Source: Microbulbifer salipaludis (GTDB lineage Bacteria > Pseudomonadota > Gammaproteobacteria > Pseudomonadales > Cellvibrionaceae). From it: DNA of 64,000 nucleotides. Below the pieces are notes generated by a model. That model was given only the letters and a program-made list of their open reading frames with translations. It was not told where the DNA came from and searched no databases. Shown here piece by piece: positions 21,578 through 51,613 of this stretch. The translations under genes and the position numbers were made by a program. Each line of letters starts with the position of its first letter. The stretch's first letter is position 1. The DNA is taken from positions 1,309,341 to 1,373,340 of the forward strand of contig NZ_JAEKJR010000001.1 in assembly GCF_017303155.1 (NCBI RefSeq), written 5' to 3'.

Positions 21578-21693
21578 AGGTGCCGGGGACGAGTTTTCAG
21601 GAGCGTCGCAAACAGGAAGTTTGCGCCGCAGCGCCCAGGGATGGGTTGAAGGGGGGCGCCTAGCCCGGTCCTGAAAACTCGTCCCCGGTGCCT
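21578..21693 (+). repeat. Cloverleaf-type inverted repeat, copy R1
   Basis: Outer arms at 21578-21602 and 21669-21693 pair over 25 positions with two mismatches, including a perfect 20-base stretch (CCGGGGACGAGTTTTCAGGA). Inside lie hairpin 1, CGCAAAC-AGGAA-GTTTGCG at 21607-21625, and hairpin 2, starting GCGCCCAGGGATGGG and closing with GGGCGC by 21659. The fold is a closed stem bearing two internal stem-loops. The same plan is found at three other places in the window. Confidence 0.85.
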
Positions 21694-21760
21694 TGCCGCC
21701 ACCGAGCGAGTCAATGGGAGCCCCGGAGGTACGATCGGAGCTCTGTTTCCCTCTAGTGGC

Positions 21761-21872
21761 ACTGGAGCACTGGGTATCAGGTTTCAAAATCGCTGCGAGT
21801 ACATCCATGTACGCTCCGGCGGTGACATTCATGTCACCGACGGTTTTGAAACCTGATCCCCAGCACTCCAGC
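21761..21872 (-). repeat. Cloverleaf-type inverted repeat, copy R2, opposite orientation
   Basis: Outer arms at 21761-21792 and 21841-21872 pair at 27 of 32 positions. On the minus strand hairpin 1 is CGGTGACAT/ATGTCACCG (21820-21839) and hairpin 2 is GTACAT-GG-ATGTAC (21799-21812), followed by TCGCAGCG as in the other copies. Arm and stem sequences differ from R1, but the layout and loops correspond. R1 and R2 face each other within 70 bases. Confidence 0.82.
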
Positions 21873-21889
21873 TTAAATTTTTAGCCCTG

Positions 21890-21920
21890 TACTTCGTAAG
21901 TGTGATTCGCGAGCGAAGTA
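21890..21920. repeat. Hairpin between repeat R2 and ileS
   Basis: TACTTCG (21890-21896) pairs with CGAAGTA (21914-21920); CCCT at 21885-21888 and AGGG at 21925-21928 can extend the stem after an internal bulge. No T-run is present. Confidence 0.55.
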
Positions 21921-21974
21921 GGTGAGGGCGTTAGAAGTGAATTAATCCCGAGCTACAACCGAAGTAGATAGCCA

Positions 21975-24779
21975 ATGACCGATTACAAAGCGACCCTGAA
22001 TCTTCCACAAACCGACTTCCCCATGCGTGGCAACCTGCCCAATCGGGAGCCGGAGATTCTGAAAAAATGGCAGGAAGGCAAGCTCTACGAAAAAATTCGT
22101 GAAGCCCGTGCCGGTCGCGAGCAGTTTATCCTGCACGACGGCCCTCCCTACGCCAACGGCGATATCCACATCGGTCATTCGGTCAACAAGATCCTGAAAG
22201 ACATCATCGTCAAATCGAAAACCCTCAGTGGTTTCGATGCCCCCTACGTGCCCGGTTGGGACTGCCACGGCCTGCCTATCGAGCATAAAGTGGAGCAGAA
22301 AGTCGGCAAGGCCGGCGTCAAGGTGGATCACAAAACCTTCCGCCAGAAGTGCCGCGAGTACGCCGCCAAACAGGTAGAAGGCCAGAAGAAAGACTTTATC
22401 CGCCTCGGCGTATTCGGTGAGTGGGATAACCCCTACCGCACCATGGACTTTGAGTTTGAAGCCGACATCATTCGCGCCCTCGGCGGCGTGGTGAAAAATG
22501 GCCACCTGTCCCGCGGCTTCAAGCCCGTCTACTGGAGCGTGGTGGGCGGTTCCGCATTGGCGGAAGCGGAAGTGGAGTACCAGGATAAAACCTCCTTCTC
22601 CATCTACGTCAAATACCCGGTCACCGACGAAACTGCCCTGGCCATCGCCGATGCTGCCGGTGGTCACGCCGGTGACGGCAACCTGTCAGTCGTGATCTGG
22701 ACCACCACACCCTGGACGCTGCCGTCCTCCCAGGCGGTTTCCGTGAATGCGGGCCTCGAATATGTTGTGGTGCAGGTGGGCGATGAGCGCCTGCTGGTGG
22801 CCGCAGAGCTGAAAGACGCGGTGCTGGCAGCGGCGGGCCTGAGCGGCGATGTGGTGGGGCATATCCAGGGCGCTGCGCTGGAGCACTTGAAAATCCATCA
22901 CCCGTTCTATGACAAGCAGCTGCCCATCATCCTCGGTGATCACGTTACTACGGACGCCGGTACCGGCTGTGTGCACACCGCCCCGGACCATGGCCCCGAT
23001 GACTTCAACGTGGGCAGGCGCTACGGTATCGAAACGCTGAACTATGTGGATGACAACGGCGTTTACCGCGACGCAGTGCCCCTGTTTGCCGGCGAGCATG
23101 TGTACAAGGTGGACGGCAAGATTGTCGAATTGCTGCAAGAAAAAGGCGTGCTGCTGCACCAGGACAAACTGGTACACAGCTACCCGCACTGCTGGCGGAC
23201 CAAAACCCCGCTCATTTACCGCGCCACACCGCAGTGGTTTATCAGCATGCAGCAGAACGACCTGCTGGAGCATGCGCAAAAAGCGGCGGATGCGGTGGAG
23301 TGGATTCCCGGTTGGGGCAAGGCCCGTATCGACGGCATGCTCGAAGGCAGCCCGGACTGGTGTATTTCCCGACAGCGCACCTGGGGTGTGCCCATCGCGC
23401 TGTTTGTACACAAAGAGACCCAGGAGATTCACCCGGACACCCCCGCGCTCATGGAAAAAGTGGCGCAAAAGGTCGAGCAGGGTGGTATGGATGTCTGGTT
23501 CGAGCTGGACGCCAAAGAATTGCTGGGCGACGACGCAGACCAGTACCAGAAAGTAACGGATACGCTGGACGTGTGGTTTGATTCCGGTGTGACCCACTAT
23601 GCGGTGCTGGAGCGTCGCAAGGGGCTGCGCTTCCCGGCGGACCTGTACCTGGAAGGCTCCGACCAGCACCGCGGCTGGTTCCAGTCTTCGCTGAAGACCT
23701 CGATCGCTATCAATGACTGCGCACCGTACAAGCAGGTGCTGACCCATGGTTTTACCGTGGACGCTCAGGGCCGCAAGATGTCCAAGTCCATCGGCAACGT
23801 GGTCGCGCCGCAGGATGTGATCAACAAAATGGGTGCCGATGTGTTGCGCCTGTGGGTAGCGGCCACCGACTTCAGCGGAGAAATGGGTGTTTCCGACGAG
23901 ATTCTGAAACGCACCGCGGATTCCTATCGTCGCCTGCGTAATACCGCACGCTTCTTCCTGTCCAATCTGGCCGGCTTTGATCCTGCCAAAGACCTGCTGC
24001 CAGTCGATGAATTACTGGCGCTGGATCGTTGGGCGCTGGAACAGGCCGCCAAGCTGCAGGAAGAAATCGTAGCGGCCTATGATCGCTACCAGTTCCACCA
24101 GATTTATCAGAAGCTGCACAATTTCTGCGTTGTGGAAATGGGTGGTTTCTACCTGGATATCATCAAAGACCGCCAGTACACCACGCAGGCAGACAGCGTG
24201 GCGCGCCGCTCGGCGCAGACCGCCCTGTACCACATCATGCAGGCGTTTGTACGCTGGGTTGCGCCCATCCTCAGCTTTACTGCGGAAGAGCTGTGGCAGT
24301 TTGTTCCGGGTAATAAAGAAGACAGCGTGATGCTGGCCGAGTGGCACCAGTTCCCGGCGCTGCCGCAGAACGCGGACATGGACAGCGAGTTCTGGGACGC
24401 GATTGCCGATGTGAAAACCGCCGTGAACAAAGTACTCGAGGAGCAGCGCGGTGCCGGCAATATCGGCGGTTCCCTGCAGGCCTCGGTAACCCTGTATGCG
24501 GATCCGGCATTGCAGCAGAAGCTGGCCGCACTGCAAGACGAATTGCGCTTTGTGCTGATCTGCTCTTCGACGTCGGTCCAGCCGCTGTCTGACGCGGCAG
24601 GTGCCGAGGTAACCGAGCTGGCAGGTCTGCGGGTGGCCGTGCACAAGGTCGATGCACCCAAGTGCGGCCGCTGCTGGCACTACCGCGAAGACGTCGGCAG
24701 CAATAGCGAGCACCCGGAACTCTGTGGTCGCTGTGTGGAAAATGTCAGCGGAGCAGGCGAGGTACGCCACTATGCGTAA
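21975..24779 (+). CDS. ileS: Isoleucyl-tRNA synthetase
   Basis: Class I synthetase of 934 residues. The HIGH motif is at 65-68 in [19 protein letters not shown] and the KMSKS motif is in [15 protein letters not shown]. The editing domain includes [19 protein letters not shown]-terminal zinc site is formed by [10 protein letters not shown] and CGRCV. Its last eight bases overlap the lspA start, so translation of the two is likely coupled. The upstream region carries the cloverleaf repeats; no T-box or other ile-specific leader is visible. Confidence 0.98.
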
Positions 24780-25290
24780 ACTTCTGGCTACCCCCTGGTG
24801 CTGGTACCTGTTGGCACTGGTGGTGATCGTGATCGATATCGTCACCAAGGTGTGGGCGGTCGACCGCTTTATGTACGGTCCGGCGCTGCAGATCATTCCC
24901 GGGTTTCTGCAGTTTACCTATGCCGAGAATTACGGTGCGGCGTTTAGCTTTCTGGCTGACGCCGGTGGTTGGCAGCGCTGGTTCTTTGGCGCCGTGGCGG
25001 TGATATTCAGCGCGGTAGTGATTGTCTGGATCAAGCGGCTGCCGCTGGCGAAACGCTGGGAGCCGACGGCACTGGCGCTGATTCTCGGCGGTGCACTGGG
25101 TAACCTGTGGGATCGTATGTTGCTGGGTTATGTGCGCGACTTTATTTCCGTGTACCACGGCAGCTGGCATTTCCCGGTATTCAATGTCGCGGATATGGCG
25201 ATTTCCGTCGGCGCGGCCATGCTGCTGATTGAGTTGCTGTTTTTTAAAGACAATAGTGAAGAGCCGGGCAAAAACGGCGCGGAAGTGTAA
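24772..25290 (+). CDS. lspA: Lipoprotein signal peptidase (signal peptidase II)
   Basis: Inner-membrane aspartic protease of 172 residues that cleaves the signal peptide of prolipoproteins after lipidation. Four membrane helices are visible. The two catalytic aspartates are Asp123 in GYVRDFI and Asp141 in [10 protein letters not shown], the same numbering as in E. coli. The [10 protein letters not shown] motif is present. The start at 24772 overlaps ileS. Its substrates in this window include BamE and BamD. Confidence 0.97.
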
Positions 25291-25307
25291 ATAATCAGAG
25301 ATGTACC

Positions 25308-25748
25308 ATGAGTAATAACGTAATCGGTGAGCACAGCCGGGTCACCCTGCACTTTGCGCTGAAACTGGATGATGGCTCCGAGATCGACTCCAATTTTGAA
25401 GGAGAGCCCGCAACCTTCATCGTGGGAGACGGCAACCTGCTACCGGGCTTCGAGCAATCCCTGCTCGGCCTGAAAGCCGGTGACGAAGCGGAAATCGAAA
25501 TTCCGCCGGAAGCGGGCTTTGGTCAGCGTAATCCGTCCAATATCCAGAAAGTGAAGAAAGGGCATTTCTCTCCCGATATGGAATTGGAAGAGGGGCTGGT
25601 GGTCTCTTTTGACAATGGTGATGGCGAGTTGCCCGGTGTCATCCGCGAAGTGGGCGAGGATGATGTCGAGGTGGATTTTAATCACCCCCTCGCCGGGCAG
25701 ACGGTATTCTTTCACGTGAAAATTCTCGAAGTGGCCTCGGTCAATTAA
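25308..25748 (+). CDS. fkpB: FKBP-type peptidyl-prolyl isomerase FkpB (SlpA)
   Basis: This 146-residue SlyD-like FKBP has an interrupted FKBP domain: the first half (VTLHFALKLDDGSEIDSNFE, then LLPGFEQSLLGLKAGDEAEI) is separated from the last strand by an insert-in-flap chaperone domain (about residues 70-120). It lacks the His-rich metal tail of SlyD. It sits between lspA and ispH, its standard place in gammaproteobacteria. Confidence 0.95.
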   Translation: MSNNVIGEHSRVTLHFALKLDDGSEIDSNFEGEPATFIVGDGNLLPGFEQSLLGLKAGDEAEIEIPPEAGFGQRNPSNIQKVKKGHFSPDMELEEGLVVSFDNGDGELPGVIREVGEDDVEVDFNHPLAGQTVFFHVKILEVASVN

Positions 25749-25781
25749 TTGTTTGGCTCGACAGGTCAAGGACAGCGCAAC

Positions 25782-26720
25782 ATGCAAATTCGCCTCGCCA
25801 ATCCCCGCGGTTTCTGCGCGGGTGTCGATCGCGCCATTGATATCGTCAATCGTGCACTGGATGTCTTTGGTGCGCCCATTTATGTGCGGCACGAAGTGGT
25901 CCACAACAAGTTTGTGGTGGACACCCTGCGCGAGCGCGGGGCGGTGTTTGTGGACGAGCTGGCGGAAGTGCCGGACGATGTGATCGTTATTTTCAGCGCG
26001 CACGGCGTGTCCAAGGCGGTGCAGCAGGAAGCGGCCGAGCGCGGCCTGAAAGTCTTCGATGCAACCTGCCCACTGGTTACCAAGGTGCATATCGAGGTCA
26101 GCAAGTTCAGCAGCGATGGAAGCGAGTGCGTGCTCATTGGCCACCAGGGCCACCCGGAAGTCGAAGGCACCATGGGGCAATACGACGCTGCCAACGGTGG
26201 TGCCATCTATCTGGTGGAAAATGAGCAGGACGTGGCGGCGCTGGCGGTGAAGGACCCGGACAACCTGACGTTTGTCACCCAGACCACACTGTCTGTGGAT
26301 GATACCTCCCGGGTCATTGATGCCCTGCGCGCGAAGTTCCCGAATATCCGCGGCCCGCGCAAAGACGACATCTGCTACGCCACCCAGAACCGGCAGGACG
26401 CGGTCAAGCAGCTGGCGCTGGAGTGCGACCTTGTGCTGGTGGTGGGTAGTCCCAACAGCTCAAACTCCAATCGCCTGCGCGAGCTGGCGGAGCGCTGTGG
26501 GGCGGAAGCCTATCTGATTGACGGCTCTGGCTGTATCGACGCCACGTGGTTGCAGGGCAAAAACACCATTGGCATCACTGCTGGTGCCTCGGCCCCAGAG
26601 GTGCTGGTGGAGCAAGTCATTCAGAAGCTCCGTGACATGGGGGCAGAGGCGCCCAATGAAGTGGCGGGCACTCCGGAAAACATCAGTTTCAGCCTGCCGA
26701 AAGAGCTGCGCACGCCGTAA
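25782..26720 (+). CDS. ispH: 4-hydroxy-3-methylbut-2-enyl diphosphate reductase
   Basis: Last enzyme of the MEP pathway, an iron-sulfur protein making isopentenyl and dimethylallyl diphosphate. The 312-residue form from the ATG at 25782 matches the family start [24 protein letters not shown] lies upstream, and an in-frame TTG at 25749 is unlikely. Cluster cysteines are Cys12, the one in DATCPLVTK and the one in [25 protein letters not shown] is also diagnostic. It ends the lspA-fkpB-ispH run and converges on fimT with only three bases between the stops. Confidence 0.97.
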
Positions 26721-26723
26721 TGC

Positions 26724-27236
26724 TCAACAGTCCGCGGCGGTGATGGTGTCAACCCTGACCCGGCCGCTGCGTGCCAGTACCAGCCGGTATCCGCTGCCCC
26801 CATTCGCGGGGCAGATGGTGAACGATCCTGCCTGAAAACCACCGCTGCTGGCTGTGCCGGCAAAGCGGCTCTCTCCGGTCCCGATAAACGAAACGTAGTT
26901 GGCCAGCGGGCCATTCGCGCGAATCGTTACTCCGGTCAGTGGCTCTCCCGTAGCGATCGGATCCTCCCCGGGATCCCTCTCCCCGTCGAAATCCCGATCA
27001 TGGAATATTTCCCAGCCGGACTGCCAGTCACCCCGTTTGCGCAACGTGGCACGCTGATTGGTGACCACCGCCTTGTTGCGGGTCAGCTTGATGGCCTGCA
27101 GTAGTGAGTCGGCTGCTGTGCGGGTTCGATTCGATTCCAGTTGTTGCTGAAAGCTGGGCAATCCGATCGCCAGCAGGATACCGAGAATACTCAGGGTGAT
27201 TAACAGTTCGACCAATGTGAGACCGCGAGCGTTCAC
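26724..27236 (-). CDS. fimT: Type IV pilus minor pilin / pseudopilin, FimT/GspH family
   Basis: Taken from the GTG at 27236, which has GGAGGAG just upstream, the product is 170 residues: a very short leader MNARG, then LTLVELLITLSILGILLAIG with Glu5 of the mature protein. The C-terminal part carries an Asp-rich loop, HDRDFDGERDPGED, and two cysteines near the end. The family forms minor pilins or pseudopilins. It faces away from the fimU cluster and ends against ispH, like fimT near ispH in Pseudomonas. The leader glycine is followed by Leu rather than Phe, as in both fimU copies. Confidence 0.85.
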   Translation of the reverse strand: MNARGLTLVELLITLSILGILLAIGLPSFQQQLESNRTRTAADSLLQAIKLTRNKAVVTNQRATLRKRGDWQSGWEIFHDRDFDGERDPGEDPIATGEPLTGVTIRANGPLANYVSFIGTGESRFAGTASSGGFQAGSFTICPANGGSGYRLVLARSGRVRVDTITAADC

Positions 27237-27557
27237 AACTCCTCCTTGAGCTGCCTGTTTCGTGAGCAGCCTCCTTCCTGGCAGCTGCGCGTATTTTTCG
27301 GCCCTTTCCCGGCCCCGATAATCTTGATCGGTCGTCCTGCTTGGCCTTTGGCCCAAGGAAATAGTGCACAAAAATTAACACCGGCCAAATTTCGTATCCA
27401 GTAACAGCCCCGATGATATTGACGATCGGTTAGAATGCGCGCCAATAATAGGGATACATCCGTACCAGGTGCGTTAGTCGAGCACCCTGTGCGCAAAAAA
27501 TAATCAATGGTGGTTGGCGAGTTGCAAAAACCGCAGCGGTATCCGGGAGTTCACACT
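27237..27557. promoter_or_regulatory. Divergent region between fimT and the first minor pilin cluster
   Basis: It must hold promoters for fimT and for fimU-pilVWXY1E. TTGACG at 27419-27424 and TAGAAT at 27431-27436 are visible but not at a workable distance from each other. No GG-N10-GC sigma-54 element was found by eye. An imperfect palindrome, CTTGGCC-TTT-GGCCCAAG, lies near 27340-27358. No coding sequence is supported. Confidence 0.45.
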
Positions 27558-28109
27558 ATGGGGTTCAGACAGCAGGGGCTCACCCTGATAGAGCTAATGA
27601 TCACGCTGGCCGTCCTGGCGGTGGTGGTTGGTATTGCCGTTCCCAGCTTTAACACAATGATTCAGAACAACCGTTCCCTGGCGCTGGGCGAAGAGCTGGC
27701 CGGTGCGCTCAACTATGCGCGCAGCGAGGCAGTAAAACGTGGGGCAAGAGTCACCCTGTGCGGCAGTACCGATGGCGCTACCTGTGATGGCTCCTGGGCC
27801 GATAACTGGATCGTAGTGGTGGATACCGCAGCCACCGACGATGCCGCCGCACCGGTAGTAGCCAACGCGGCCGCCGTGCTGCGTTTCTGGGAGGCGCCGG
27901 ACAACAACGCCACCATCGCCGCGACCCAGGGCAGCGCCACGCCCACCTTCGTCCGCTTCACCCGCAAGGGCACCCTCGGGCGCTCTACCGTCGGTACGGT
28001 CACCCTGAACACCAGTTTTAGCGGATGCAGCAGTAATAACGCGCGCTTGCTGACCGTCGGCGCTGCGGGAATGCTGAATATGTCGCGCAGTACCGACGGC
28101 TGTTCCTGA
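27558..28109 (+). CDS. fimU: Type IV pilus minor pilin FimU (GspH/FimT family), cluster A
   Basis: Prepilin of 183 residues starting MGFRQQGLTLIELMITLAVL; cleavage after Gly7 leaves Leu1 and Glu5. GGGAG precedes the ATG at 27558. The GspH domain follows (EELAGALNYARSEAVKRGAR, then VTLCGSTDG) and ends with cysteines in FSGC and DGCS. FimU links the minor pilin tip complex to the pilus shaft. Residues 1-65 are almost the same as in FimU of cluster B (34452-34988), while the C-terminal half has diverged. First gene of a six-gene cluster. Confidence 0.92.
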   Translation: MGFRQQGLTLIELMITLAVLAVVVGIAVPSFNTMIQNNRSLALGEELAGALNYARSEAVKRGARVTLCGSTDGATCDGSWADNWIVVVDTAATDDAAAPVVANAAAVLRFWEAPDNNATIAATQGSATPTFVRFTRKGTLGRSTVGTVTLNTSFSGCSSNNARLLTVGAAGMLNMSRSTDGCS

Positions 28110-28125
28110 GCGAGGAGGTAGAACA

Positions 28126-28551
28126 ATGAATAAGCAACAGGGCGCCGGCCTGATCGAAGTTTTGGTGACCGTACTGATTCTCGGCACTTCACTACTTGCC
28201 CTTGCCGCGCTGCAGAGTAAATCCCTGCACTACAACCACAGTGCTTACCTGCGTTCCCAGGCCAATATCCTGGCCTATGACATTCTCGATCGGGTGCGTA
28301 TCAATCGCGCCAATATCGCGGGCTATAACCTGGCGGTGGGTGACGCCAAGCCCACCGGAAGCACCCTGGCGCAGCAGGATTTGAACCAGTGGCTCACCAA
28401 TCTGGAAACTCTGTTGCCGGGCGCCGACGGCGGGGTTGCGTGTGTCTCTGCCACCCGCTTCTGTACGGTCACCATTCAGTGGGCAGAACAAAACAGCTCT
28501 GGCGATGCCAGCGAAGACGAAAGCGAATTCGTCTACACCACCCGGCTGTGA
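28126..28551 (+). CDS. pilV: Type IV pilus minor pilin PilV, cluster A
   Basis: A 141-residue prepilin starting MNKQQGAGLIEVLVTVLILG, with the pilV-type leader QQGAG and Glu5. The body carries HYNHSAYLRSQANILAYDIL, typical of PilV, and a C-terminal pair of cysteines (VACVSATRFCTVTIQW). A GAGGAGG site precedes the start. It lies 16 bases after fimU. The paralogue at 35007-35459 shares the N-terminal 60 residues with few changes. Confidence 0.92.
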   Translation: MNKQQGAGLIEVLVTVLILGTSLLALAALQSKSLHYNHSAYLRSQANILAYDILDRVRINRANIAGYNLAVGDAKPTGSTLAQQDLNQWLTNLETLLPGADGGVACVSATRFCTVTIQWAEQNSSGDASEDESEFVYTTRL

Positions 28552-28561
28552 GGGAATATCC

Positions 28562-29629
28562 GTGAACAGAACAACTATGCGTAGTCAAAAAGGTATCTCG
28601 CTGGTCGAGTTGATGATCTCCATTACCATCGGGTTGATCCTGATGACCGGCGTGGTGCAGCTTTTCCTGTCCAGCCGCGCCACCTTTTCCACCCAGCAGG
28701 CGTTGGCGCGGGTGCAGGAAAGTGGCCGCATGGCCATGGAATTCCTGTCGGAAGATATCCGTATGGCGGGGTACATGGGATGCATGAGCCGGAACCTGAA
28801 TTTCCACAATACGCTGAACAACGCGAATAGCCTGCAATACGACTTCGGTGTCGCAATCGAGGGGCTGGACAACGTTGGCGCGACTCCGGTGGCGGAGTAC
28901 CCCGTGGATATTCTGCAAGGCACCGATGCACTGGTTGTGCGCAGCGCCGGGGGCAATAGCGTAGGGGTCACCAGAAACAATGACAGTGCGCAGTTGTTTG
29001 TGGAAAACACTGGAGTTACCGCCACTTGCGATACCGGTGAGGACAGCTACAGCGGGTTATGCGAAAACGACATTCTGGTGGTGTCCGACTGCTCCAAGGC
29101 GCGAGTTTTTCAGGCGACCAACCTGCAGGAAAACAGCGGCGGGGTTGAGGTGAACGTGGTGCACTCGGGAGCGAGTGCAGTACCGGGTAATGCCGAAACT
29201 TCCTGGGGCGGCAGTAGCAATCCGGAAGAAACCTTCGGTGCAGATTCTGAAATCATCAAAATGAACACCTCGATTTACTACGTCGCCGATGGCACTACCG
29301 GCACGCCGAGCCTGTGGCGCCAGATCAACGGTGGCACAGCGCAGGAGCTGTTGACCGGGGTGCAGGACATGCAGCTGACCTATGGGCGCGATACGTCCGG
29401 CGATGGCATTCCTGACTCCTATGTGGATGCTTCCGCACTGACCACACCTGCAGCCTGGGAAACCGTATCCAGCGTGCGTGTGCAGCTTTTGATACAGAGC
29501 ACGGACGACAATGTGCTGGCGGAAGCACAGCCCTATACCTTCAACGGTGTCACTAATAATGCGCCCGGAGATCGCCGCTTACGCCAGGTGTTTATCAGCA
29601 CCGTGGGTATTCGCAGCCGTCTCCCGTGA
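28562..29629 (+). CDS. pilW: Type IV pilus minor pilin PilW, cluster A
   Basis: A 355-residue prepilin-like protein. I use the GTG at 28562 (GAGGGAA upstream); an ATG at 28577 is the alternative. Leader MNRTTMRSQKG, then ISLVELMISITIGLILMTGV. The PilW hallmark SSRATFSTQQALARVQESGR follows. Near residue 280, YGRDTSGDGIPDSYVDA forms a D-x-S-x-D-G-x-x-D calcium-type loop. PilW joins PilV, PilX and PilY1 in the tip complex. Confidence 0.92.
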   Translation: MNRTTMRSQKGISLVELMISITIGLILMTGVVQLFLSSRATFSTQQALARVQESGRMAMEFLSEDIRMAGYMGCMSRNLNFHNTLNNANSLQYDFGVAIEGLDNVGATPVAEYPVDILQGTDALVVRSAGGNSVGVTRNNDSAQLFVENTGVTATCDTGEDSYSGLCENDILVVSDCSKARVFQATNLQENSGGVEVNVVHSGASAVPGNAETSWGGSSNPEETFGADSEIIKMNTSIYYVADGTTGTPSLWRQINGGTAQELLTGVQDMQLTYGRDTSGDGIPDSYVDASALTTPAAWETVSSVRVQLLIQSTDDNVLAEAQPYTFNGVTNNAPGDRRLRQVFISTVGIRSRLP

Positions 29630-29655
29630 TTGAGTAATGACCGACCGAGTGAACT

Positions 29656-30195
29656 ATGAAAAAAATACATAGCCAGAGCACATTGTCGCGCCAGCGGGGC
29701 ATGACCCTGATCGTTGGTCTGATCATGGTTCTACTGATGACGGTGGTGGGCATGGCCGCGATTCGCGGCAGCGGAATGCAGGAACTGATGTCGGGCAACA
29801 TGCGCGATCGGAATTTGGCTTTCCAGTCTGCGGAAGCCGGGCTGCGTGAAGGTGAAGAGCTTCTGACGGGAGCCACGATACCGCTATTTGATGGTTCCAT
29901 AGTGGGGCTGGTGCCGTCAATTGACGGGTCCTCGGGGACAGGTTTCTGGGAGACCTATGGCTGGGAGAGCGGTTCAGTGCGCACAGCGCTGGGGCTGCAG
30001 CTGGTGGCCAGTCAGCCACAGTATGTTATCGAAGAGGTCACTTCGACTATTACCGTTAACGCCGCAGATGGTGGCGCAGTGGACTTCGCGAGCACATTGA
30101 AAACGGAGGACACCGTGTATTACCGAGTGACCAGCCGCGCAGAAGGGGGTAGCGCCGATGCGGTTGTTATTCTCCAGTCCACCTATAAACGTTAA
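29656..30195 (+). CDS. pilX: Type IV pilus minor pilin PilX, cluster A
   Basis: This 179-residue protein has an N-terminal leader SRQRG, then MTLIVGLIMVLLMTVVGMAA, and the PilX signature MQELMSGNMRDRNLAFQSAE. As usual for PilX, position 5 of the mature protein is not Glu (MTLIV), so it may depend on its partners for assembly. It lies 26 bases after pilW and 21 bases before pilY1. The paralogue is at 36591-37136. Confidence 0.92.
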   Translation: MKKIHSQSTLSRQRGMTLIVGLIMVLLMTVVGMAAIRGSGMQELMSGNMRDRNLAFQSAEAGLREGEELLTGATIPLFDGSIVGLVPSIDGSSGTGFWETYGWESGSVRTALGLQLVASQPQYVIEEVTSTITVNAADGGAVDFASTLKTEDTVYYRVTSRAEGGSADAVVILQSTYKR

Positions 30196-30216
30196 GTCCG
30201 GCAGAAGGAAGATTTC

Positions 30217-33663: not shown

Positions 33664-33689
33664 ATGGAATTTGCGAGTGAGATAAAACG

Positions 33690-40663: not shown

Positions 40664-40666
40664 TGT

Positions 40667-42095: not shown

Positions 42096-42135
42096 ATTGT
42101 TAGGCGTTATCTTTGATCGGCAAGCTGCAGGCTAA

Positions 42136-43803: not shown

Positions 43804-43950
43804 TTTTCGCTCTCTTTTTATGTGCGCGGTTGTATACGCTGTTATTTTTTACGGCAGTGCCGGCGCAAAACACCGGTCCGTCTCCGGGCAGATGTTGTGC
43901 CCCCGAGCGGCGTGGCTACAATAGCCGCCTCAGATCAACGGGGTAATAGG

Positions 43951-45579
43951 ATGTCTACTTTGCAGCTAGTGCTGGCGCAAATCAATCTAATGGTGGGGGA
44001 TATTCCCGGCAATACCGACCAGGTGGTCGAAGTCGCCCGCCGCGCGCACCGCGAGCACGACGCAGACCTGGTGTTGTTTCCGGAATTGACCCTGTGCGGT
44101 TACCCCCCGGAGGACCTGCTGCTGCGCCCCAGCATGCAGAAGCGTATCGACGCCGCGCTGAAAGCGTTGCAAGAGGCAGACCTGCCGTGCGCGGTACTGG
44201 TGGGTTATCCCCGGGTTGTGGCGGGTACCGTGCTGAATATGGCGGGACTGATACAGGGGGGCGCGCTGGTGGCCGAATACGCCAAGCAGAAACTCCCCAA
44301 TTACCAGGTGTTCGACGAACTGCGTTACTTCATCCCCGGTGATCAGCCCTGCGTGGTGGATATCAAGGGCATACCGACCGCCATCACCATCTGCGAGGAT
44401 ATCTGGCACCCGGAGCCCGTTGCCCAGGCACGGCATGCAGGGGCAAAACTGATGTTGAATATCAATGCATCGCCGTTCCACCAGGGTAAGGCGCAGGAGC
44501 GGCTGGCGCTGCTGGGGCGTCAGGCGCAGGCAGGCGATATGCCTATCGTGTACGTCAACTCCGTGGGCGGGCAAGACGAGCTGGTGTTCGACGGCGGCTC
44601 CTTTGCGGTGGACAAGGATGGCAGCCTGCGCGGGCGGGCGCCGGAGTTTGTCGAGAGCCTGCTACCGATCACCGTGCAGGCGGAAGAGGGCGAGGTGCGC
44701 CTTGCCGCAGGCAATGATGCCGAGCCCCTGCCAGCACTGGCGTCGGTCTACCAGGCGCTGGTACTGGGTGTGCGGGACTATGTGAATAAGAATGGCTTCA
44801 AGGGCGTCGTCCTCGGCCTGTCTGGGGGCATCGATTCGGCCCTGACGCTGGCGATAGCGGTGGATGCGCTGGGCCCGGATCGCGTGGAAGCGGTGATGAT
44901 GCCGTTCCGCTACACCTCGGACCTGTCCAAAAACGATGCAGCGGATCAGGCCCGACGCCTGGGTATCCATTACCGTGTCATTGGTATCGAGGGCATCTTC
45001 GATGCGGCCATGGCCGCGCTGGCCAGGGAATTTGAGGGCAGCGAGCGGGATACCACCGAGGAAAACCTGCAGGCACGTGCCCGCGGCATGCTACTGATGG
45101 CCATTTCCAACAAGAAAGGCTTTATGGTCCTCACCACCGGTAACAAGAGTGAGATGGCGGTGGGTTATGCCACCCTGTACGGCGACATGGTGGGTGGTTA
45201 TAACGCATTGAAAGATGTGCCCAAGGTGCTGGTGTACGCGCTGTCCCGTTACCGCAACTCGGTATCCGAGGTGATTCCGGAGACGGTGATCACCCGCGAG
45301 CCCAGTGCCGAGCTGGCACCGGACCAGGTGGATTCCGACAGCCTGCCCCCCTACGAGGTGCTGGACGAAATCCTGCGCCTGTACATCGATGAGGACCACA
45401 GCGCGGCGTATATTATCGGCCGGGGGTTCGATGAGGCCACGGTGATGCGCGTGGTACGCCTGGTGGATCGCAACGAATACAAGCGCCGTCAGGCCGCGGT
45501 GGGGGTACGGATCTCCGAGCGCGGGTTCGGGCGCGACCGGCGTTATCCGATCACCAATGGATGGAAGGCCGGCGAGTAA
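43951..45579 (+). CDS. nadE: Glutamine-dependent NAD+ synthetase
   Basis: Converts deamido-NAD to NAD using glutamine. The start at 43951 (MSTLQLVLAQINLMVGDIPG) gives 542 residues; upstream in-frame codons do not resemble the family. The N-terminal nitrilase-type glutaminase domain has LFPELTLCGY and the catalytic Cys in ITICEDIW. The C-terminal synthetase domain holds the PP-loop LGLSGGIDSALT and VLTTGNKSEMAVGY. It is followed by a strong terminator. Confidence 0.97.
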   Translation: MSTLQLVLAQINLMVGDIPGNTDQVVEVARRAHREHDADLVLFPELTLCGYPPEDLLLRPSMQKRIDAALKALQEADLPCAVLVGYPRVVAGTVLNMAGLIQGGALVAEYAKQKLPNYQVFDELRYFIPGDQPCVVDIKGIPTAITICEDIWHPEPVAQARHAGAKLMLNINASPFHQGKAQERLALLGRQAQAGDMPIVYVNSVGGQDELVFDGGSFAVDKDGSLRGRAPEFVESLLPITVQAEEGEVRLAAGNDAEPLPALASVYQALVLGVRDYVNKNGFKGVVLGLSGGIDSALTLAIAVDALGPDRVEAVMMPFRYTSDLSKNDAADQARRLGIHYRVIGIEGIFDAAMAALAREFEGSERDTTEENLQARARGMLLMAISNKKGFMVLTTGNKSEMAVGYATLYGDMVGGYNALKDVPKVLVYALSRYRNSVSEVIPETVITREPSAELAPDQVDSDSLPPYEVLDEILRLYIDEDHSAAYIIGRGFDEATVMRVVRLVDRNEYKRRQAAVGVRISERGFGRDRRYPITNGWKAGE

Positions 45580-45600
45580 GCCGCGTACTCACCGGCAACA

Positions 45601-45638
45601 AAAAAGGCCCCGCTGATTGCTCAGCGGGGCCTTTTTTT
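45601..45638. terminator. Bidirectional terminator between nadE and bamD
   Basis: GGCCCCGCTGA (45606-45616) pairs with TCAGCGGGGCC (45621-45631) around TTGC, with A5 before and T7 after. Confidence 0.93.
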
Positions 45639-45660
45639 ATCGGGCTGCAGTGCCCCAACG

Positions 45661-46605
45661 TCAAAGTTCTGGTGGCAGCGGCGCTTCCTGTGGGCGGTAC
45701 TCGGCGTTGTACAGCTCGCGACTGTCGAAACCACGGGGGTCCGATTTCTCAAACAGGCCCAGGGTGATGCGGTGAATAAAGCTGCGACCGCTGGCGCCGG
45801 CGAAGTACTTGTAGTTGAAACTGCCGTCGTCGCGGAATGCCGGGTGATGCGGGTAGTTGGTGCGCAGCACTGCGAGGGAACTCGACTCCAGCTGTGGCAT
45901 TTCCAGCAGATGGTAAGACTGCACCATCACCGCCAGCGCATCGGGCACCGCCGGGGTCTGCTGGAAGTTTTCCACCACATAGCGGCCACGGTTGGCGGCG
46001 GCCAGGTAGGCGTTGCGCTTGAAGTAGTAGTTGGCCACGTGAATTTCATAGCGCGCCAGCAGGTTGCGCAGGTGGATCATGCGCTTCTGGGCGTCAGGCG
46101 CGTAGCGGCTTTCCGGGTAGCGCGCCATCAGCTGGGCAAAGTAGGCAAAGGATTCCCGCGCCGAGCCCGGGTCGCGGCGGGTCATGTCGGTGGGCAAAAA
46201 GCGTTCGAACAGCCCGCTGCCTTCGGTGAACGAGGCCAGCCCCTTCATGTAATAGGCGTAATCCACGTTGCGATGCTGCGGATGCAGGCGGATAAAACGA
46301 TCCGCTGCAGAGATGGCTGCATCGTTCTGGTAGTCGCGGTAGTAGGCGTAGATCAGCTCCAGCTGGGCCTGCTCTGCGTAGTTGCCGAACGGGAAGTTGT
46401 CTTCCAGGGCCCGCAGGTTCTTGATCGCCAGCTCCCACTGGCTGGATTTCAGCTGCCGCTGGGCGGCTTCATAGAAGGCCTGTTCGGTGCGGTTGCCGGA
46501 AGGCAGTCCCGCTTCTTCTTCGTCCGTACTGGCACAGGAGGCCACCAAAACAGCCAGCATTGCCAGCAACAGCGTTTTCCAGGCCTGATTATCCCAGGAC
46601 CACAT
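45661..46605 (-). CDS. bamD: Outer membrane assembly lipoprotein BamD (YfiO/ComL)
   Basis: Essential BAM component made of TPR-like helical repeats. The start at 46605 (314 residues) has GAGG just upstream; an ATG at 46623 is a possible alternative. The hydrophobic leader [16 protein letters not shown] ends in the lipobox LVASC with Cys24. Typical segments are [20 protein letters not shown] and [19 protein letters not shown]. The C-terminal extension ends in [10 protein letters not shown]. It diverges from rluD, a common pairing in gammaproteobacteria. Confidence 0.95.
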
Positions 46606-46771
46606 CGCCCCTCGCTCTATCATTATTTGTCTCAACCTTATTAAACTAGCCGCCCTAAATTCACCGGGGGCCGAAGGGCAGCTATTTAACCACAGCGTCC
46701 CGCCAGCCCAAAGCGCCAGCGCCCTGTTGGCAACCATAATTATTGCGTTACAGGACACTAGACCCTCTCGG

Positions 46772-47737
46772 ATGAGCAATCAAATACATCTCGATATTCA
46801 AGTACCCGCAGAGTATGCCGGGCAACGGTTTGACCAGATCGCAGCGGATTTGATCCCTGATTATTCCCGCGCCCGCCTGCAGAGCTGGATAAAAGGCGGC
46901 CAACTCACGGTTGACGGGCGTTCTGGCAAGCCCAAGGACAAGCTATACGGTGGTGAGCAGCTGCAGCTGCGCGCTGAACTGGAGCCCCAGGGGGAGTGGC
47001 AGGCTCAGGCGATGGACCTGGATATCGTCTATGAAGACGACAGCCTGCTGGTGGTCAACAAGCCCGCGGGGCTGGTGGTCCACCCGGCAGCGGGTAATCC
47101 CGACGGCACCCTGTTGAATGGGCTTCTTGCCCACTGCGCGGGACAGCAGAACATCCCCCGGGCAGGCATTGTGCATCGGCTGGACAAGGACACCAGTGGC
47201 CTGATGGTGGTGGCGAAAACCCTGCAGGCGCAGGCGGACCTGGTGGATCAACTCAAGGCCCGGTCTGTGAGCCGTCAGTACGACGCCATCGTGCACGGCA
47301 CCCTGAGTGGCGGCGGCACCATCAAGGCGCCGATGGGCCGCCACCGCACCCATCGACTGAAAATGGCCGTGTTACCCAACGCGGGCATGGGCGGTGCGAA
47401 GGAAGCGATTACTCACTATCGTCTGCAGGAGCGCTTCCGCGGCCATACGCTGGTGCGCTGCCAGCTGGAAACCGGTCGCACCCACCAGATCCGGGTGCAC
47501 ATGGCGCATATCCGCCATCCACTGGTGGGGGACCCGCTGTATGGCGGGCGCAACAAATTGCCCGCCGGTGCAGCGCCCGAGCTGATTGAAGCGCTGCAGC
47601 AATTCCCCCGGCAGGCATTGCATGCGGCCGAGCTGGCGCTCATTCACCCGGTGACTGCCGAGACCATGCACTGGTCGGCGGCCATGCCGGAGGATATGCT
47701 GCGGCTGCTCGCACTGCTGCGAGCCGACAACCTCTGA
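46772..47737 (+). CDS. rluD: 23S rRNA pseudouridine synthase RluD
   Basis: Modifies uridines 1911, 1915 and 1917 of 23S rRNA (E. coli numbering). The 321 residues begin at the ATG at 46772, the family-like start; a TTG at 46727 is in frame but unlikely. An N-terminal S4 domain ([20 protein letters not shown]) is followed by the catalytic domain with [35 protein letters not shown] is also diagnostic. pgeF follows 24 bases later, so the two likely form an operon. Confidence 0.96.
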
Positions 47738-47761
47738 ATCTAAGCCCAGGATGACACAGGA

Positions 47762-48529
47762 ATGCCCATGGCTGCTGACCACTACCTCAAACCGGACTGG
47801 CCCGCGCCGGCCAACGTGCGCGCGTTTACCACCTTGCGCGCGGACGGCCACAGCCAGGGCGCCTACCGTGGGTTCAATCTCGCCGACCATGTCGGGGATG
47901 ATGCCGCGGCGGTGGCCGCCAACCGCAGCCAGCTACAGCAGGAGCTGAATCTGCCCAATGCCCCGCAGTGGCTGGAACAGATCCACAGTGACAAAGTGGT
48001 GCAGGCGCACAGCGACGGCAAGATACGCACCGCAGACGCGAGTTTCACCGCAGAGGCGGGCATCGTCTGTGCCGTGCTCACCGCCGACTGCCTGCCGCTG
48101 TTGCTGTGCAATCGCGAGGGCTCTGAAGTGGCCGCAATCCACGCGGGCTGGCGGGGTCTGACCGGCGGTGTGATTCGCGAAACCATTACCGCCATGTCCA
48201 GTGCGCCCGAGGACCTGCTGGTATGGCTTGGCCCGGCCATCGGGCCGCAGGCGTTCGAGTGTGGTGTGGACGTGCTGGAAGCGGCGTTCGAATCGTCCAT
48301 CAGTGCGTCCCATGCGGTGGCCATCGCCAGGTGCTTCGTTCCGCACACGCAAAAGCCACTGCACTTCCTGGCGGATATCTACGCCCTCGGTCGCGCCGAA
48401 CTGGCTGAGCTGGGGGTGACACAGGTATCGGGTGGCGACCGTTGCACCGTTACCGAAGAGGCGGACTTTTTCTCCTACCGTCGGGATGGGGATACCGGGC
48501 GTATGGCGTCTTTGATTTGGTTCGAGTAA
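47762..48529 (+). CDS. pgeF: Polyphenol oxidase family / peptidoglycan editing factor PgeF (YfiH)
   Basis: This 255-residue protein of the multicopper-type YfiH family removes wrongly placed amino acids from UDP-MurNAc in E. coli. Conserved metal-binding elements are QIHSDKVV, LTADCLPLLL and AIHAGWRGL, plus the C-terminal GGDRCTVTE and FFSYRRDG. It follows rluD closely, and in many gammaproteobacteria clpB comes next, as here. A cloverleaf repeat begins 44 bases after its stop. Confidence 0.94.
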   Translation: MPMAADHYLKPDWPAPANVRAFTTLRADGHSQGAYRGFNLADHVGDDAAAVAANRSQLQQELNLPNAPQWLEQIHSDKVVQAHSDGKIRTADASFTAEAGIVCAVLTADCLPLLLCNREGSEVAAIHAGWRGLTGGVIRETITAMSSAPEDLLVWLGPAIGPQAFECGVDVLEAAFESSISASHAVAIARCFVPHTQKPLHFLADIYALGRAELAELGVTQVSGGDRCTVTEEADFFSYRRDGDTGRMASLIWFE

Positions 48530-48573
48530 TCATTTGGGTTCTGGGGGCCCAGCTCAGAAGTTGGTCCAGTAGC

Positions 48574-48685
48574 GGCCAATCACTGGGGATGGGGTTTCAG
48601 GACCGCTGTGAATACATCCCTGTACGCTTCGTCGGCAACATCCCTGTTGCCGACGATCCTGAAGCCCCATCCCCAGCGCTTGGCC
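48574..48685 (-). repeat. Cloverleaf-type inverted repeat, copy R3
   Basis: Outer arms at 48574-48605 and 48654-48685 pair at 28 of 32 positions. On the minus strand hairpin 1 is CGTCGGCAACA-GGGA-TGTTGCCGACG (48630-48655), 11 perfect pairs, and hairpin 2 is TACA-GGGA-TGTA (48613-48624), followed by TTCACAGCG. It has the same orientation as R2 and the same overall plan as R1 and R4. Confidence 0.85.
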
Positions 48686-48745
48686 TTCACCCTCTAGCCC
48701 GTAGCTTCGCCACTTCACCTGCTTCGGGGCAGAAAACCAACAAAG

Positions 48746-48773
48746 CTTGAAAACCCGCCGCCAGCCCGCAAAT
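48746..48773 (+). promoter_or_regulatory. Sigma-32 promoter of clpB
   Basis: CTTGAA at 48746-48751, a 14-base spacer, and CCGCAAAT at 48766-48773, close to the RpoH consensus. The distance to the clpB start is about 97 bases. It begins 60 bases after repeat R3. Confidence 0.7.
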
Positions 48774-48869
48774 TAAAGATCAGCACTAGAATGTATTCGT
48801 CATTGTGTTTCCGCGCGTCGTTTCATCCTTTTTGCGACGCGTCAATGATCAGGAGAGGGCAACTGCACC

Positions 48870-51476
48870 ATGCGCATCGACCGGATGACCAACCCCCTAC
48901 AGGCCGCCATTGCTGACGCACAATCGATTGCTGTCGGACGCGACCACAACCAGATTTATCCCGAACATTTGCTGCAGGCACTGCTCGACCAGTCCAATGG
49001 CAGTGTTACCGCCTTTCTGAATCAGGCCGGCTTCAATATCAACGGCCTGCGCAACGATTTGGCCAAGCGCCTCGACAGTCTGCCGACCGTGGGAACGCCC
49101 ACCGGCGATGTAGGCATGTCCCAGGAGCTGATGCGGTTATTTAATCTGGCGGACAAAAAAGCACAGAAACACGGCGATAGTTTTATCGCCAGCGAAACGG
49201 TTTTACTCGCGGCCTTCGACCCTGCCGCCGGCGAGGTCTCGAAAATCCTGAACGCACATGGCGACCTGAAACATCTGCAGGACGCCATTACCAAAATTCG
49301 CGGTGATGAAAAGGTCAACGACCCGCAGGCGGAAGAGGCGCGCCAGGCCTTGGATAAATACACCATGGACCTGACCGCCCGCGCGGAAGCGGGCAAACTG
49401 GACCCGGTGATTGGCCGCGACGACGAAATTCGCCGCACTATTCAGGTGTTGCAGCGTCGGACCAAAAATAATCCGGTACTGATCGGTGAGCCCGGTGTGG
49501 GTAAAACCGCCATCGTGGAAGGCCTCGCCCAGCGCATCGTCAATGGCGAAGTCCCCGAGGGGTTGAAAGACAAGCGCCTGCTGTCCCTCGATCTCGGATC
49601 ACTGCTGGCCGGTGCCAAGTTCCGCGGTGAATTCGAAGAGCGCCTGAAAGCGGTGTTGAACGAGCTCTCCAAGCAGGAGGGGCGCGTCATCCTGTTCATT
49701 GACGAATTGCACACCATGGTCGGCGCCGGCAAGGCGGAAGGAGCCATGGATGCGGGCAATATGCTCAAGCCCGCACTGGCGCGCGGTGAACTGCATTGCG
49801 TGGGCGCGACCACCCTGAATGAATACCGCCAATATATCGAGAAAGATGCGGCACTGGAGCGGCGCTTCCAGAAGGTACTGGTCGATGAGCCCAGTGAAGA
49901 AGATACCATCGCGATCCTGCGCGGCCTCAAAGAGCGCTATGAGGTGCACCACGGCGTGGACATCACCGACTCCGCCATCATTGCCGCCACCAAGTTGTCG
50001 CAGCGTTACATTACCGACCGCCAGTTGCCGGACAAGGCCATCGACCTGATCGACGAGGCCGCCAGCCGCATTCGCATGGAAATCGACTCCAAGCCAGAGG
50101 AAATGGACAAACTGGAGCGACGCCTGATTCAGCTCAAGATCGAGCGCGAAGCGGTGAAAAAGGACAAGGACGACGAGGCCGCTAAAAAACGCCTGGAGAA
50201 ACTCGAGCAAGACATCGACGATATCGAAAAGGAGTACGCCGACCTGGAGGAAATCTGGAAGGCGGAAAAGGCCAAGCTCGCTGGCAGTGCGGATATCAAG
50301 AACAAACTGGAACAGGCCAAGCTGGACATGGATGCGGCGCGCCGCGCCGGCGACCTGACGCGGATGTCCGAGATCCAGTACGGCGTGATTCCGCAGCTGG
50401 AACAGCAGCTGAAGCTGGCCTCAGACACCAGTGATACCAGTGACAACCAACTGCTGCGCAATCGTGTCACCGACGAGGAAGTCGCCGAGGTGGTTTCCCG
50501 CTGGACCGGTATCCCGGTATCAAAAATGCTCGAAGGCGAGCGCGAGAAACTGTTGAAAATGGAAGGGGCTCTGCATGACCGAGTGATCGGTCAGGATGAA
50601 GCCGTGGTGGCGGTGTCCAACGCGGTGCGCCGCTCCCGAGCCGGTCTTGCGGATCCCAACCGGCCCAATGGCTCCTTCCTGTTCCTCGGCCCCACCGGTG
50701 TCGGTAAGACGGAGTTGTGCAAGGCGCTGGCAGAATTCCTGTTCGATACCGAAGACGCCATGGTGCGCATCGACATGTCCGAGTTTATGGAGAAACACTC
50801 GGTTGCGCGGCTGATCGGAGCACCTCCCGGCTATGTGGGGTATGAGGAAGGTGGCTATCTCACCGAGGCGGTGCGCCGTAAGCCCTACTCGGTGCTGCTG
50901 CTGGACGAAGTCGAAAAAGCCCACCCGGATGTATTCAACATTCTGCTGCAGGTGCTGGAAGATGGCCGCCTGACCGATGGCCAGGGGCGCACCGTGGACT
51001 TCCGCAACACCGTTGTGGTGATGACGTCGAACCTGGGCTCGGATCTGATCCAGAAATACGCCAGCGCCAAGGACGATGACGAAGTGGACAGCGAAATCCA
51101 TTACCGCCAGATGAAGGCCGCGGTGATGGATGTCGTGGGCACCCACTTCCGCCCCGAGTTTATCAACCGCATCGACGAAGTGGTGGTATTCCATCCGCTG
51201 GACCGCGCCGAAGTGCGCTCGATTGCAGAGATACAGTTACAGAACCTGCGCAATCGCCTGGCAGACCGGGATCTCAAGTTCGAGATATCCGAAGAGCTGC
51301 TGAACAAGCTGGCCGATGTGGGGTTCGACCCGGTATACGGTGCGCGGCCGCTGAAGCGCGCTATCCAGATGTGGTTGGAAAACCCTCTGGCCCAGGATGT
51401 GCTCTCCGGAAAATTCGTACCCGGCGATACCATTCACGCGACTTTGGAAGGGGATAAACCGGTTTTTGAAAAGTAG
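48870..51476 (+). CDS. clpB: ATP-dependent disaggregase ClpB
   Basis: Hsp104-type unfoldase of 868 residues that dissolves aggregates with DnaKJE. It begins [20 protein letters not shown], the family start. The N domain is followed by AAA1 with Walker A GEPGVGKT, a long charged coiled-coil M domain (about 400-530, rich in Lys/Glu), and AAA2 with GPTGVGKT and [33 protein letters not shown] shows the pore loop. Regulated by heat shock to judge from its promoter. A cloverleaf repeat starts 18 bases after the stop. Confidence 0.98.
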
Positions 51477-51493
51477 CTCGAAGGAAGTTGTGA

Positions 51494-51613
51494 AGGTGGC
51501 GGTATCGGGTAGCAACTTGTGAGACCTTCAAAAACAGGATGTTTTTGCAGAGCCCCCAGGGATGGGTTTACGGCGTGTCTCACAAGTTGCTACCCGGTAG
51601 CGCCTCCGCCACC
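51494..51613 (+). repeat. Cloverleaf-type inverted repeat, copy R4
   Basis: Arms at 51494-51525 and 51576-51613 share a perfect 20-base inner pairing (CGGGTAGCAACTTGTGAGAC) and an outer AGGTGGCG; the right arm has six extra bases between these parts. Hairpin 1 is CAAAAAC-AGGAT-GTTTTTG (51529-51547). Hairpin 2 holds CCCAGGGATGGG followed by TTTACGGCG. The right arm ends only 41 bases before the adaptor gene. Confidence 0.85.

Follow-up and report, generated by a model that had tools for sequence, protein, structure and literature searches.

The four repeats R1–R4 in the window (the whole 64-kb stretch of DNA analysed) are members of a large dispersed family of cloverleaf repeats. The element, about 115–140 bp long, is a long palindrome broken by two hairpins, H1 and H2, so that one strand is predicted to fold as a cloverleaf. 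The loops of both hairpins carry GGA, usually within A(N)GGAX, while the stems vary, and CsrA/RsmA was therefore taken up as a specific hypothesis. We give nearly an even chance to the reading that these are non-autonomous mobile palindromes with a twin CsrA-type hairpin, in which CsrA binding is predicted from the loop code.

Structure of the four copies

An inverted-repeat search and folding recovered the four copies at the places where the sequence-only reading had put them, R2 and R3 being minus-strand copies. They were the best four of the eight pairs found in the 64 kb, with arms of 31–36 nt that were 86–88% complementary. Copy ends were set by flank conservation over 96 copies and by blast extents, and those of R1 and R4 were adjusted to about 21569–21702 and 51490–51612.

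20544..21521, plus strand: upstream gene, riboflavin kinase/FAD synthetase (Pfam FAD_syn and Flavokinase), context only
21569..21702, plus strand: R1, from the conserved 5' end GCGAAGG to the 3' end GCCGCCAC; H1 loop AGGAA (21614-21618), H2 loop AGGGAT (21637-21642), extra third hairpin at about 21651-21668
21703..21755, no strand: spacer separating R1 from R2, an inverted pair
21756..21875, minus strand: R2, opposite in orientation to R1; outer arms 21762-21871; H2 loop ATGGAT (plus-strand 21803-21808), H1 loop ATGAAT (21827-21832), GGA lost
21975..24779, plus strand: downstream gene, encoding a class I tRNA synthetase that has a zinc finger of IleRS type (context)
48569..48690, minus strand: R3; H2 is GTACAGGGATGTAT, loop at plus-strand 48616-48621; H1 loop AGGGAT (48640-48645)
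48870..51476, plus strand: gene lying between copies R3 and R4, encoding an AAA chaperone that has ClpB-type domains (context)
51490..51612, plus strand: R4; H1 loop AGGAT (51536-51540), H2 loop AGGGAT (51558-51563)

The 20 perfect inner pairs described for R1 and for R4, and the 11 of R3 H1, were all seen in the sequence, and each of the four copies had a strong predicted fold on both strands. When scored with the family model, R2, R3 and R4 gave E-values of 1.4e-8 or better (R4, one of the 18 training rows of the model, 89.3 bits); R1 scored weakly (19.5 bits, E 0.057) because of its extra third hairpin.

The covariation of the stems is overwhelming and lies far beyond that of shuffles, in support of the earlier description of one family with one plan. 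Among 96 distinct rows, in an alignment fitted to the model and thus tilted toward structure, 29 of 30 pairs changed on both sides with pairing kept, a value reached by none of 500 shuffles. Cells were paired in 95.0% of cases (65.7% after shuffling), and 789 were altered on both sides, compared with 217 in the shuffles. The inner arms were 97% Watson-Crick (1107 Watson-Crick, 16 GU and 17 mismatches among 1140), unlike what is expected of a purely RNA-selected helix. H1 was variable, with 72 different stems among the 101 hairpins detected by script in the named loci.

Size and distribution of the family

The possibility that these four copies stood alone, considered with the sequence-only reading, did not hold: at least 95 model matches were found in the 4.0-Mb genome of the window, with covariation beyond shuffles and no match to a named family. 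A 17-base core motif with at most one mismatch occurred at 27 places in this genome, against none for the reversed control. Twelve named genomes of 12 gammaproteobacterial genera, picked for containing the search pattern, carried from 12 to at least 150 copies each in the model search. The family had not been recognised from the sequence, and Rfam 15 likewise gave no match in the window and, in eight copy-bearing loci, only eight weak matches, all under the gathering score. No description of the repeat was found in the literature searched, in which five core strings had no text match. The parts available of the REP papers PMC3733652, PMC12306157 and PMC2817692 contain no such element. Plasmids and phages gave no match in a distant-mode search with a single copy (L013) as query.

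All 96 copies in the genome of the window were intergenic by our own codon-score ORF calls, 73 of them between co-directional genes. In these tandem contexts 42 copies were sense and 31 antisense (P 0.24), so no sense bias was seen; the named loci gave 16 and 15, respectively, a weak test with 52 of the 126 copies inside longest-ORF calls and 17 at a contig or locus edge. Among the 96 listed copies, 15 pairs lay less than 350 bp from each other, and every one was in opposite orientation, 11 as -+ and 4 as +-, a trait shared with REPINs.

At orthologous sites we observed presence, absence and exchange of copies, which together with the many dispersed copies gives a mobile-element-like distribution, in support of one of the possibilities raised earlier. 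For the R1/R2 site, 18 congeners were searched and 13 loci fetched, of which 5 carry the pair and 8 lack it. At the R3 site, elements were found in 2 of 11 congener loci measured, and remnants were seen by eye in 2; the R4 site held a full copy in none of 13 congener loci and one arm remnant by eye. For a Stenotrophomonas site, 41 genomes were searched and 39 gave a match; of the 25 loci fetched, 24 were measured. The proposed comparison of such sites thus yielded loci with and without copies, but no clean insertion joint or target duplication, of the kind a MITE of a DNA transposon would leave, could be read, the copy-free sites being too diverged. Some copy losses resemble, by eye, deletions between short repeats. 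Four congeners also have, by eye, a CCCANGGANGGG-like string at the R4 site; its minimum-energy fold was a GGA hairpin in just two of the four, and for this reason we do not rely on solo hairpins there.

A REP-associated (RAYT) transposase had been put forward as a possible partner, and this was not supported. The genome of the window and 12 others were searched for Y1_Tnp, and none of the 16 genes found (14 in 8 other genomes, 2 in its own) lay near a model match with E up to 0.1, at distances of up to 1.5 kb, one contig ending before that distance. Four of the 12 copy-bearing genomes, carrying 12–89 copies, had no Y1_Tnp match at all, and in S. maltophilia SJTL3 (94 copies) all four Y1_Tnp matches lacked a model match within 1.5 kb. 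The products of 356 ORFs lying at most 2.5 kb from copies, in 80 of 120 fetched loci, were compared all against all, and no group of mobile-element genes recurred; the largest recurring neighbour group (5 loci) was biotin-carboxylase-like, as named by eye, the next comprised 3 loci and the others 2.

Loop sequences and the CsrA/RsmA code

The loops had been described as conserved. This stands for most of them, but the first loop of R2 (ATGAAT) has lost the motif. The A(N)GGAX shared by both loops had not been pointed out in the sequence-only reading. In a strict count, in which an A(N)GGAX loop had to sit on three or more pairs, two loops were present in 85 of the 96 copies of the genome of the window and in 0 of 96 on the complementary strand; the second strict loop was absent in the remaining 11. 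A looser count, which gave at least two loops for 92 of 96 copies, had taken in side hairpins and, in R2, a second loop that is not genuine; the strict count replaces it and, together with the loops that lack the leading A, makes the CsrA reading slightly less likely. The strict loops comprised 148 hexaloops and 32 pentaloops, with G (99), T (45), C (3) or A (1) at the N position and T (126), C (47), A (6) or G (1) at X. Two strict loops were kept in 38 of 42 sense and 27 of 31 antisense copies.

The search pattern for the named loci fixed H2 only, leaving H1 free. A strict H1 loop was found in 84 of their 107 H1 regions and in 2 of 107 on the complementary strand; at least 8 of the 23 regions failing the strict test had CGGAC or TGGAC-type pentaloops. 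Any GGA in the loop was seen in 93 of the 101 script-found H1 hairpins, compared with 69 of 2,575 trinucleotides outside H1 loops in the same stretches. The distance from GGA to GGA was 19–21 nt in all 85 copies with GGA in both loops; 92 of the 96 copies were decomposed for this measure and four resisted decomposition.

According to the available part of PMC4005645, RsmE recognises stem-borne hexaloops of the form ANGGAX and, at lower affinity, AGGAX. The accessible text of PMC7652899 gives the SELEX consensus RUACARGGAUGU, beside which R3 H2, GUACAGGGAUGU, may be set, and a bridging of sites over 10–63 nt with an optimum above 18. By sequence, ANGGAX/AGGAX loops at two or more sites 10–63 nt apart were strictly found in 85 of the 96 copies. 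CsrA is encoded in all 22 copy-bearing genomes tested, although its presence is uninformative in this class. Also in favour of CsrA, versions of one Stenotrophomonas site (L289, L294) had an H1 grown to two further AGGAC hairpins.

Similarity to known elements

The cloverleaf repeat resembles REP, REPIN and BIME elements (GTAG and CGTC super-families; PMC3733652, available part) in being high-copy, intergenic, palindromic, species-variable, non-autonomous and often arranged in inverted pairs. It differs from REPs, given as 20–40 bp in the same part of that paper, in being about three or more times longer, with two hairpins inside an outer palindrome, in conserving GGA in the loops rather than an unpaired GTAG/CGTC tag, and in that no flanked RAYT gene was found. 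The GTAG tag is absent, the columns before H1 in our alignment A2 reading AC.[GT]TC. As for CGTC REPs, this alignment has CGTC in 8 of 18 rows, CTTC in 9 and TGTC in 1, mostly paired with the 3' side, and the stems do not begin with AT, unlike those of CGTC REPs (an unpaired CGTC/TGTC/CCTC tag, an 8–9 bp stem from AT, a 4–5 nt loop and a CCA tail).

The CGTC-1 dimers of H. neapolitanus, lying in 41-bp palindromes, are similar in that a longer palindrome encloses two hairpins, and their tail 'attcacg' ahead of the 3' arm is similar to the TTCACGGCG tail of our repeat. Inside lie CGTC-1 repeats whose stems measure 8 bp and whose loops measure 4 nt, a GGA loop is not mentioned in the part of PMC3733652 available, and the outer palindrome is known from a consensus. 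Compared by description, these palindromes are a possible relative of the cloverleaf repeat.

The sponge RNAs of the CsrB/RsmZ type also carry several A(N)GGAX hairpins, with hexa- and pentaloops, at a spacing for the CsrA/RsmA dimer. They are dedicated sRNA genes under GacA control, whereas the cloverleaf repeat has mostly two loops per copy and many scattered copies in both orientations. The TwoAYGGAY RNA motif owes its name to its A-Y-GGA-Y loops. CsrA binding of this motif (RF01731), from Clostridia, was proposed by motif match in the available text of PMC4333381; our copies had no Rfam match to it in the window and eight copy-bearing loci. An expressed GGA-rich RNA, CsrR1, is reported from the hfq 5' UTR of Alcanivorax dieselolei (PMC9788540, available part) and might be a copy of the cloverleaf repeat. 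Two hfq loci from three genomes of the sampled Alcanivorax genus gave no model match.

Interpretation

The observation behind the sequence-only reading is confirmed, and its interpretation as a whole is partly supported. In the reading we prefer, the element would spread in trans through an enzyme encoded elsewhere, and its outer palindrome would be held self-complementary at the DNA level by template-switch repair, conversion or selection on a DNA hairpin. The twin loops, at their distance of 19–21 nt, would be conserved through binding of one CsrA/RsmA dimer to the transcribed GGA strand, across both hairpins, and transcribed copies would then form dispersed sites at which CsrA/RsmA docks or is titrated. 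Counting against the CsrA part are the lack of a sense bias, the almost wholly Watson-Crick inner arms, the leading A missing in part of the H1 loops and R2 H1 without GGA. That antisense copies keep their loops nearly as often as sense copies is unexpected if selection acts on read-through RNA only.

A rival is a purely DNA-based explanation, in which a mobility enzyme acting in trans takes the cloverleaf, as single strand or cruciform, for its substrate and recognises it by the GGA loops, comparable to IS200/IS605-type hairpins, with no role for RNA. Conservation of the loops whatever the orientation, the almost wholly Watson-Crick inner arms, the inverted close pairs, as in REPINs, the traffic at orthologous sites and the leading A of H1 that is not always retained all speak for it. 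On the other hand, no Y1_Tnp gene had a copy nearby, a third of the 12 copy-bearing genomes lacked such a gene match, no mobile-element group recurred in the neighbourhood, and free N and X positions with an optional N agree with CsrA recognition and would be surprising in a signal for a DNA recombinase. We regard this explanation as possible, if rather doubtful. An mRNA end element of the REP/BIME kind, with a stable stem on whichever strand that halts exonucleases, dampens read-through or is bound by a nucleoid protein, would suit the intergenic placement between mostly co-directional genes, the folding of the four window copies on both strands and the absent orientation bias. Its GGA loops would then stem from one master copy; H1 stems have been replaced many times with the loops kept, so descent alone is no explanation, and the complementary strand is without such loops, which makes this account improbable. 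Least probable, and by our estimate a slight chance, is a repeat family that already has a name, such as a TIR repeat of Stenotrophomonas linked to TIRYT transposases; the available part of PMC3733652 describes two TIR families. Flanking of such genes is what defines TIR families, whereas the Y1_Tnp genes of SJTL3 have no copy within 1.5 kb, and the core strings were absent from the literature searched.

Beyond the twin-hairpin reading itself, we consider it conceivable, though on balance doubtful, that mobile palindromes domesticate or parasitise CsrA/RsmA. Each jump would plant a twin dimer site in a transcript, tens to hundreds of copies would set the free CsrA/RsmA level and rewire the regulon, and a hypervariable self-complementary arm, as a 'barcode' of each copy, would keep folding intramolecular. 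If the loops bind CsrA/RsmA, they would represent an unrecognised layer of global regulation in many species and a means for a mobile element to spread binding sites for one of its host's regulators. Otherwise, a loop code so similar must have a different reader, presumably the missing mobility enzyme. The arms, hypervariable and yet self-complementary, are a natural example on which palindrome upkeep can be studied.

The four copies in the window

The sequence-only reading had described four cloverleaf-shaped repeats, R1 to R4, and their presence and layout were confirmed from the window sequence, its folds and an inverted-repeat search. The elements are about 120–134 bp long, as set by their conserved ends (5' GCGAAGG or similar; 3' GCCGCCAC), with two hairpins, H1 and H2, inside outer palindromic arms. 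In some copies a third hairpin, approximately GGGGGGCGCCTAGCYCG, takes the place of the usual tail; at the R1 site it was present in some congeners and missing in others.

R1 (+) and R2 (-): inverted pair, bounded on one side by a riboflavin kinase/FAD synthetase gene and on the other by a tRNA synthetase gene
R3 (-) and R4 (+): flanking a ClpB-type gene, one on each side
Window 21651-21668: third hairpin, in R1
L032:2526-2618 (fetched locus): third hairpin
L033:10579-10674 (fetched locus): third hairpin
L035:7965-8060 (fetched locus): third hairpin

Separately, window 2883-2926 holds a perfect 20-bp inverted repeat whose arms enclose a 4-nt loop, together with runs of A/T; it is perhaps a bidirectional terminator.

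Family size and distribution

The copies belong to one family that extends beyond these four: a model trained on 18 copies, all from the commonest class, gave at least 95 matches in the M. salipaludis genome (best 150 of 2,199 candidates scored), and the core motif with at most one mismatch gave 27, with none for the reversed control. Three further matches lay in other fetched stretches: L257, L240 and L253, the last of them partial. A core-pattern scan of one-genome-per-species contigs found at least 120 loci. Among the matches listed, all genus-named loci came from gammaproteobacterial genera (among them Stenotrophomonas, Xanthomonas, Marinobacter, Microbulbifer, Oceanisphaera, Rheinheimera, Alcanivorax, Halopseudomonas, Cellvibrio, Haliea and Shewanella), and some others were labelled just Pseudomonadota. 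In 12 genomes chosen from loci bearing the core pattern, the model matched 94, at least 150, 81, 17, 89, 53, 59, 15, 12, 12, 45 and 12 times. A phylum sample of 150 genomes, M. salipaludis included, contained a match in at least 10, all of its own class, a lower bound given the stricter filters used. The element was also seen on contigs labelled as a Klebsiella pneumoniae MAG (L124, L139, L150), possibly mis-binned from another gammaproteobacterium.

No prior account of the repeat was found in the text of open papers, covered mostly at title and abstract level. CGTC dimers inside longer palindromes are known from one Halothiobacillus case. This single case and the REP repeats are its closest published relatives (PMC3733652), and we call the element a new variant among dispersed palindromic repeats.

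Covariation of the stems and upkeep of the arms

The proposal of covarying stems with conserved loops was borne out. In 96 distinct rows fitted to the model, 95.0% of cells were paired vs 65.7% after shuffling, 789 vs 217 cells were altered on both sides, and both-side change occurred in 29 of 30 pairs; none of 500 shuffles matched these values, which were far above those of slid registers. Further pair types showed no excess in these rows (72 vs 73.8, reached by 412 of 500 shuffles). A MAFFT alignment of 18 copies, all script-selected for good arms, was 97.8% paired, with 106 vs 29 cells altered on both sides. Stem 2 differs between classes (CCC/GGG vs GUAC/GUAC).

In the arms, 95 matches were scored at their 12 outermost model pairs, giving 1107 Watson-Crick pairs, 16 G-U pairs and 17 mismatches, with all 12 Watson-Crick in 79 matches. 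Farther out the arms were looser (pairs 15-30 of 92 copies: 1196, 131 and 145, respectively). Among twelve copy pairs sharing an identical inner region, agreement at arm positions 11-15 was just 0-58%, and self-pairing was nevertheless kept within each copy. Since a helix under selection as RNA alone usually tolerates more G-U pairs, the arms are likely maintained at the DNA level, either by template switching or conversion or because a DNA hairpin is under selection.

Conserved GGA loops and their possible role

Hairpin loops were scored as strict when they read A(N)GGAX on at least three pairs. The 96 M. salipaludis copies comprised 85 with two strict loops, 10 with one and 1 with none. The complementary strand had a single strict loop in one copy and two in no copy. 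A separate hairpin decomposition gave 85 copies with GGA in both loops; in these the GGA-GGA distance was 19 nt (3), 20 nt (22) or 21 nt (60). At the named loci, where the search pattern fixed H2 and left H1 free, a strict H1 loop was seen in 84 of 107 distinct regions, against 2 of 107 on the complementary strand, and 93 of 101 script-found H1 hairpins, with 72 different stems, had GGA in the loop. Among the 23 failing regions, at least eight had CGGAC/TGGAC-type pentaloops without the leading A, others being decayed or unusual.

These loops resemble the CsrA/RsmA code: in the published code of RsmE, high affinity goes with an ANGGAX hexaloop that sits directly on top of a stem and lower affinity with AGGAX (PMC4005645), and the SELEX consensus is RUACARGGAUGU, with dimer bridging at 10-63 nt (PMC7652899). 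CsrA was encoded in all 22 copy-bearing genomes tested, which proves little because it is expected in this class. Copies between co-directional genes were sense in 42 cases and antisense in 31 (singletons, 32 vs 21, P 0.17; named loci, 16 and 15), and two strict loops survived in 38 of the 42 sense copies and in 27 of the 31 antisense ones. Such retention means that copies are renewed more quickly than they degenerate, or else that the loops matter at the DNA level. All 15 close pairs were inverted, so that one copy would always be sense, which fits RNA and DNA readings alike. Because both orientations keep the loops and some H1 loops lack the leading A, we put it at slightly under an even chance that the loops are kept as predicted CsrA/RsmA sites in RNA, and consider it rather unlikely, though a serious alternative, that they matter through recognition as DNA. 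As a separate observation, G018, of the same genus, had nine CsrA family matches vs one to three in 20 other genomes.

Gain, loss and possible mobility

The suggested REP/RAYT partner was not supported: none of 16 Y1_Tnp transposase-domain matches was flanked by a copy, and no mobile-element gene recurred beside copies at the 80 loci examined. A mobility enzyme, if any, would act in trans. Two Y1_Tnp genes are present in M. salipaludis:

G000 C2:2216418-2216741: Y1_Tnp gene
G000 C1:799005-799331: Y1_Tnp gene

Both look like orphan REP-transposase relatives, because a scripted search within 1.5 kb of them turned up no hairpin whose perfect stem reached 8.

Copies come, go and are exchanged, as seen from two sites that vary among relatives. 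Of 13 congener loci for the R1/R2 site, five carried the pair, its stems and arms different and the third hairpin present in some only; the other eight lacked the element and had 51-80 nt only. At one Stenotrophomonas site, arms and hairpins differed among strains whose flanking anchors share about 91-96% identity. Some strains had lost the copy, apparently by deletion between short repeats, and in three just 35-106 nt separated the genes. In three others (L287, L289, L294) H1 was about 80 nt larger, with up to two extra AGGAC hairpins, and this enlarged form recurred at a second Stenotrophomonas locus (L097, near 5128). At the R4-less sites of G030, G014, G027 and G020 (L208, L209, L211, L212), a short CCCANGGANGGG-like string lies upstream of the HlyD-type gene; in two of the four it folds as a GGA hairpin.
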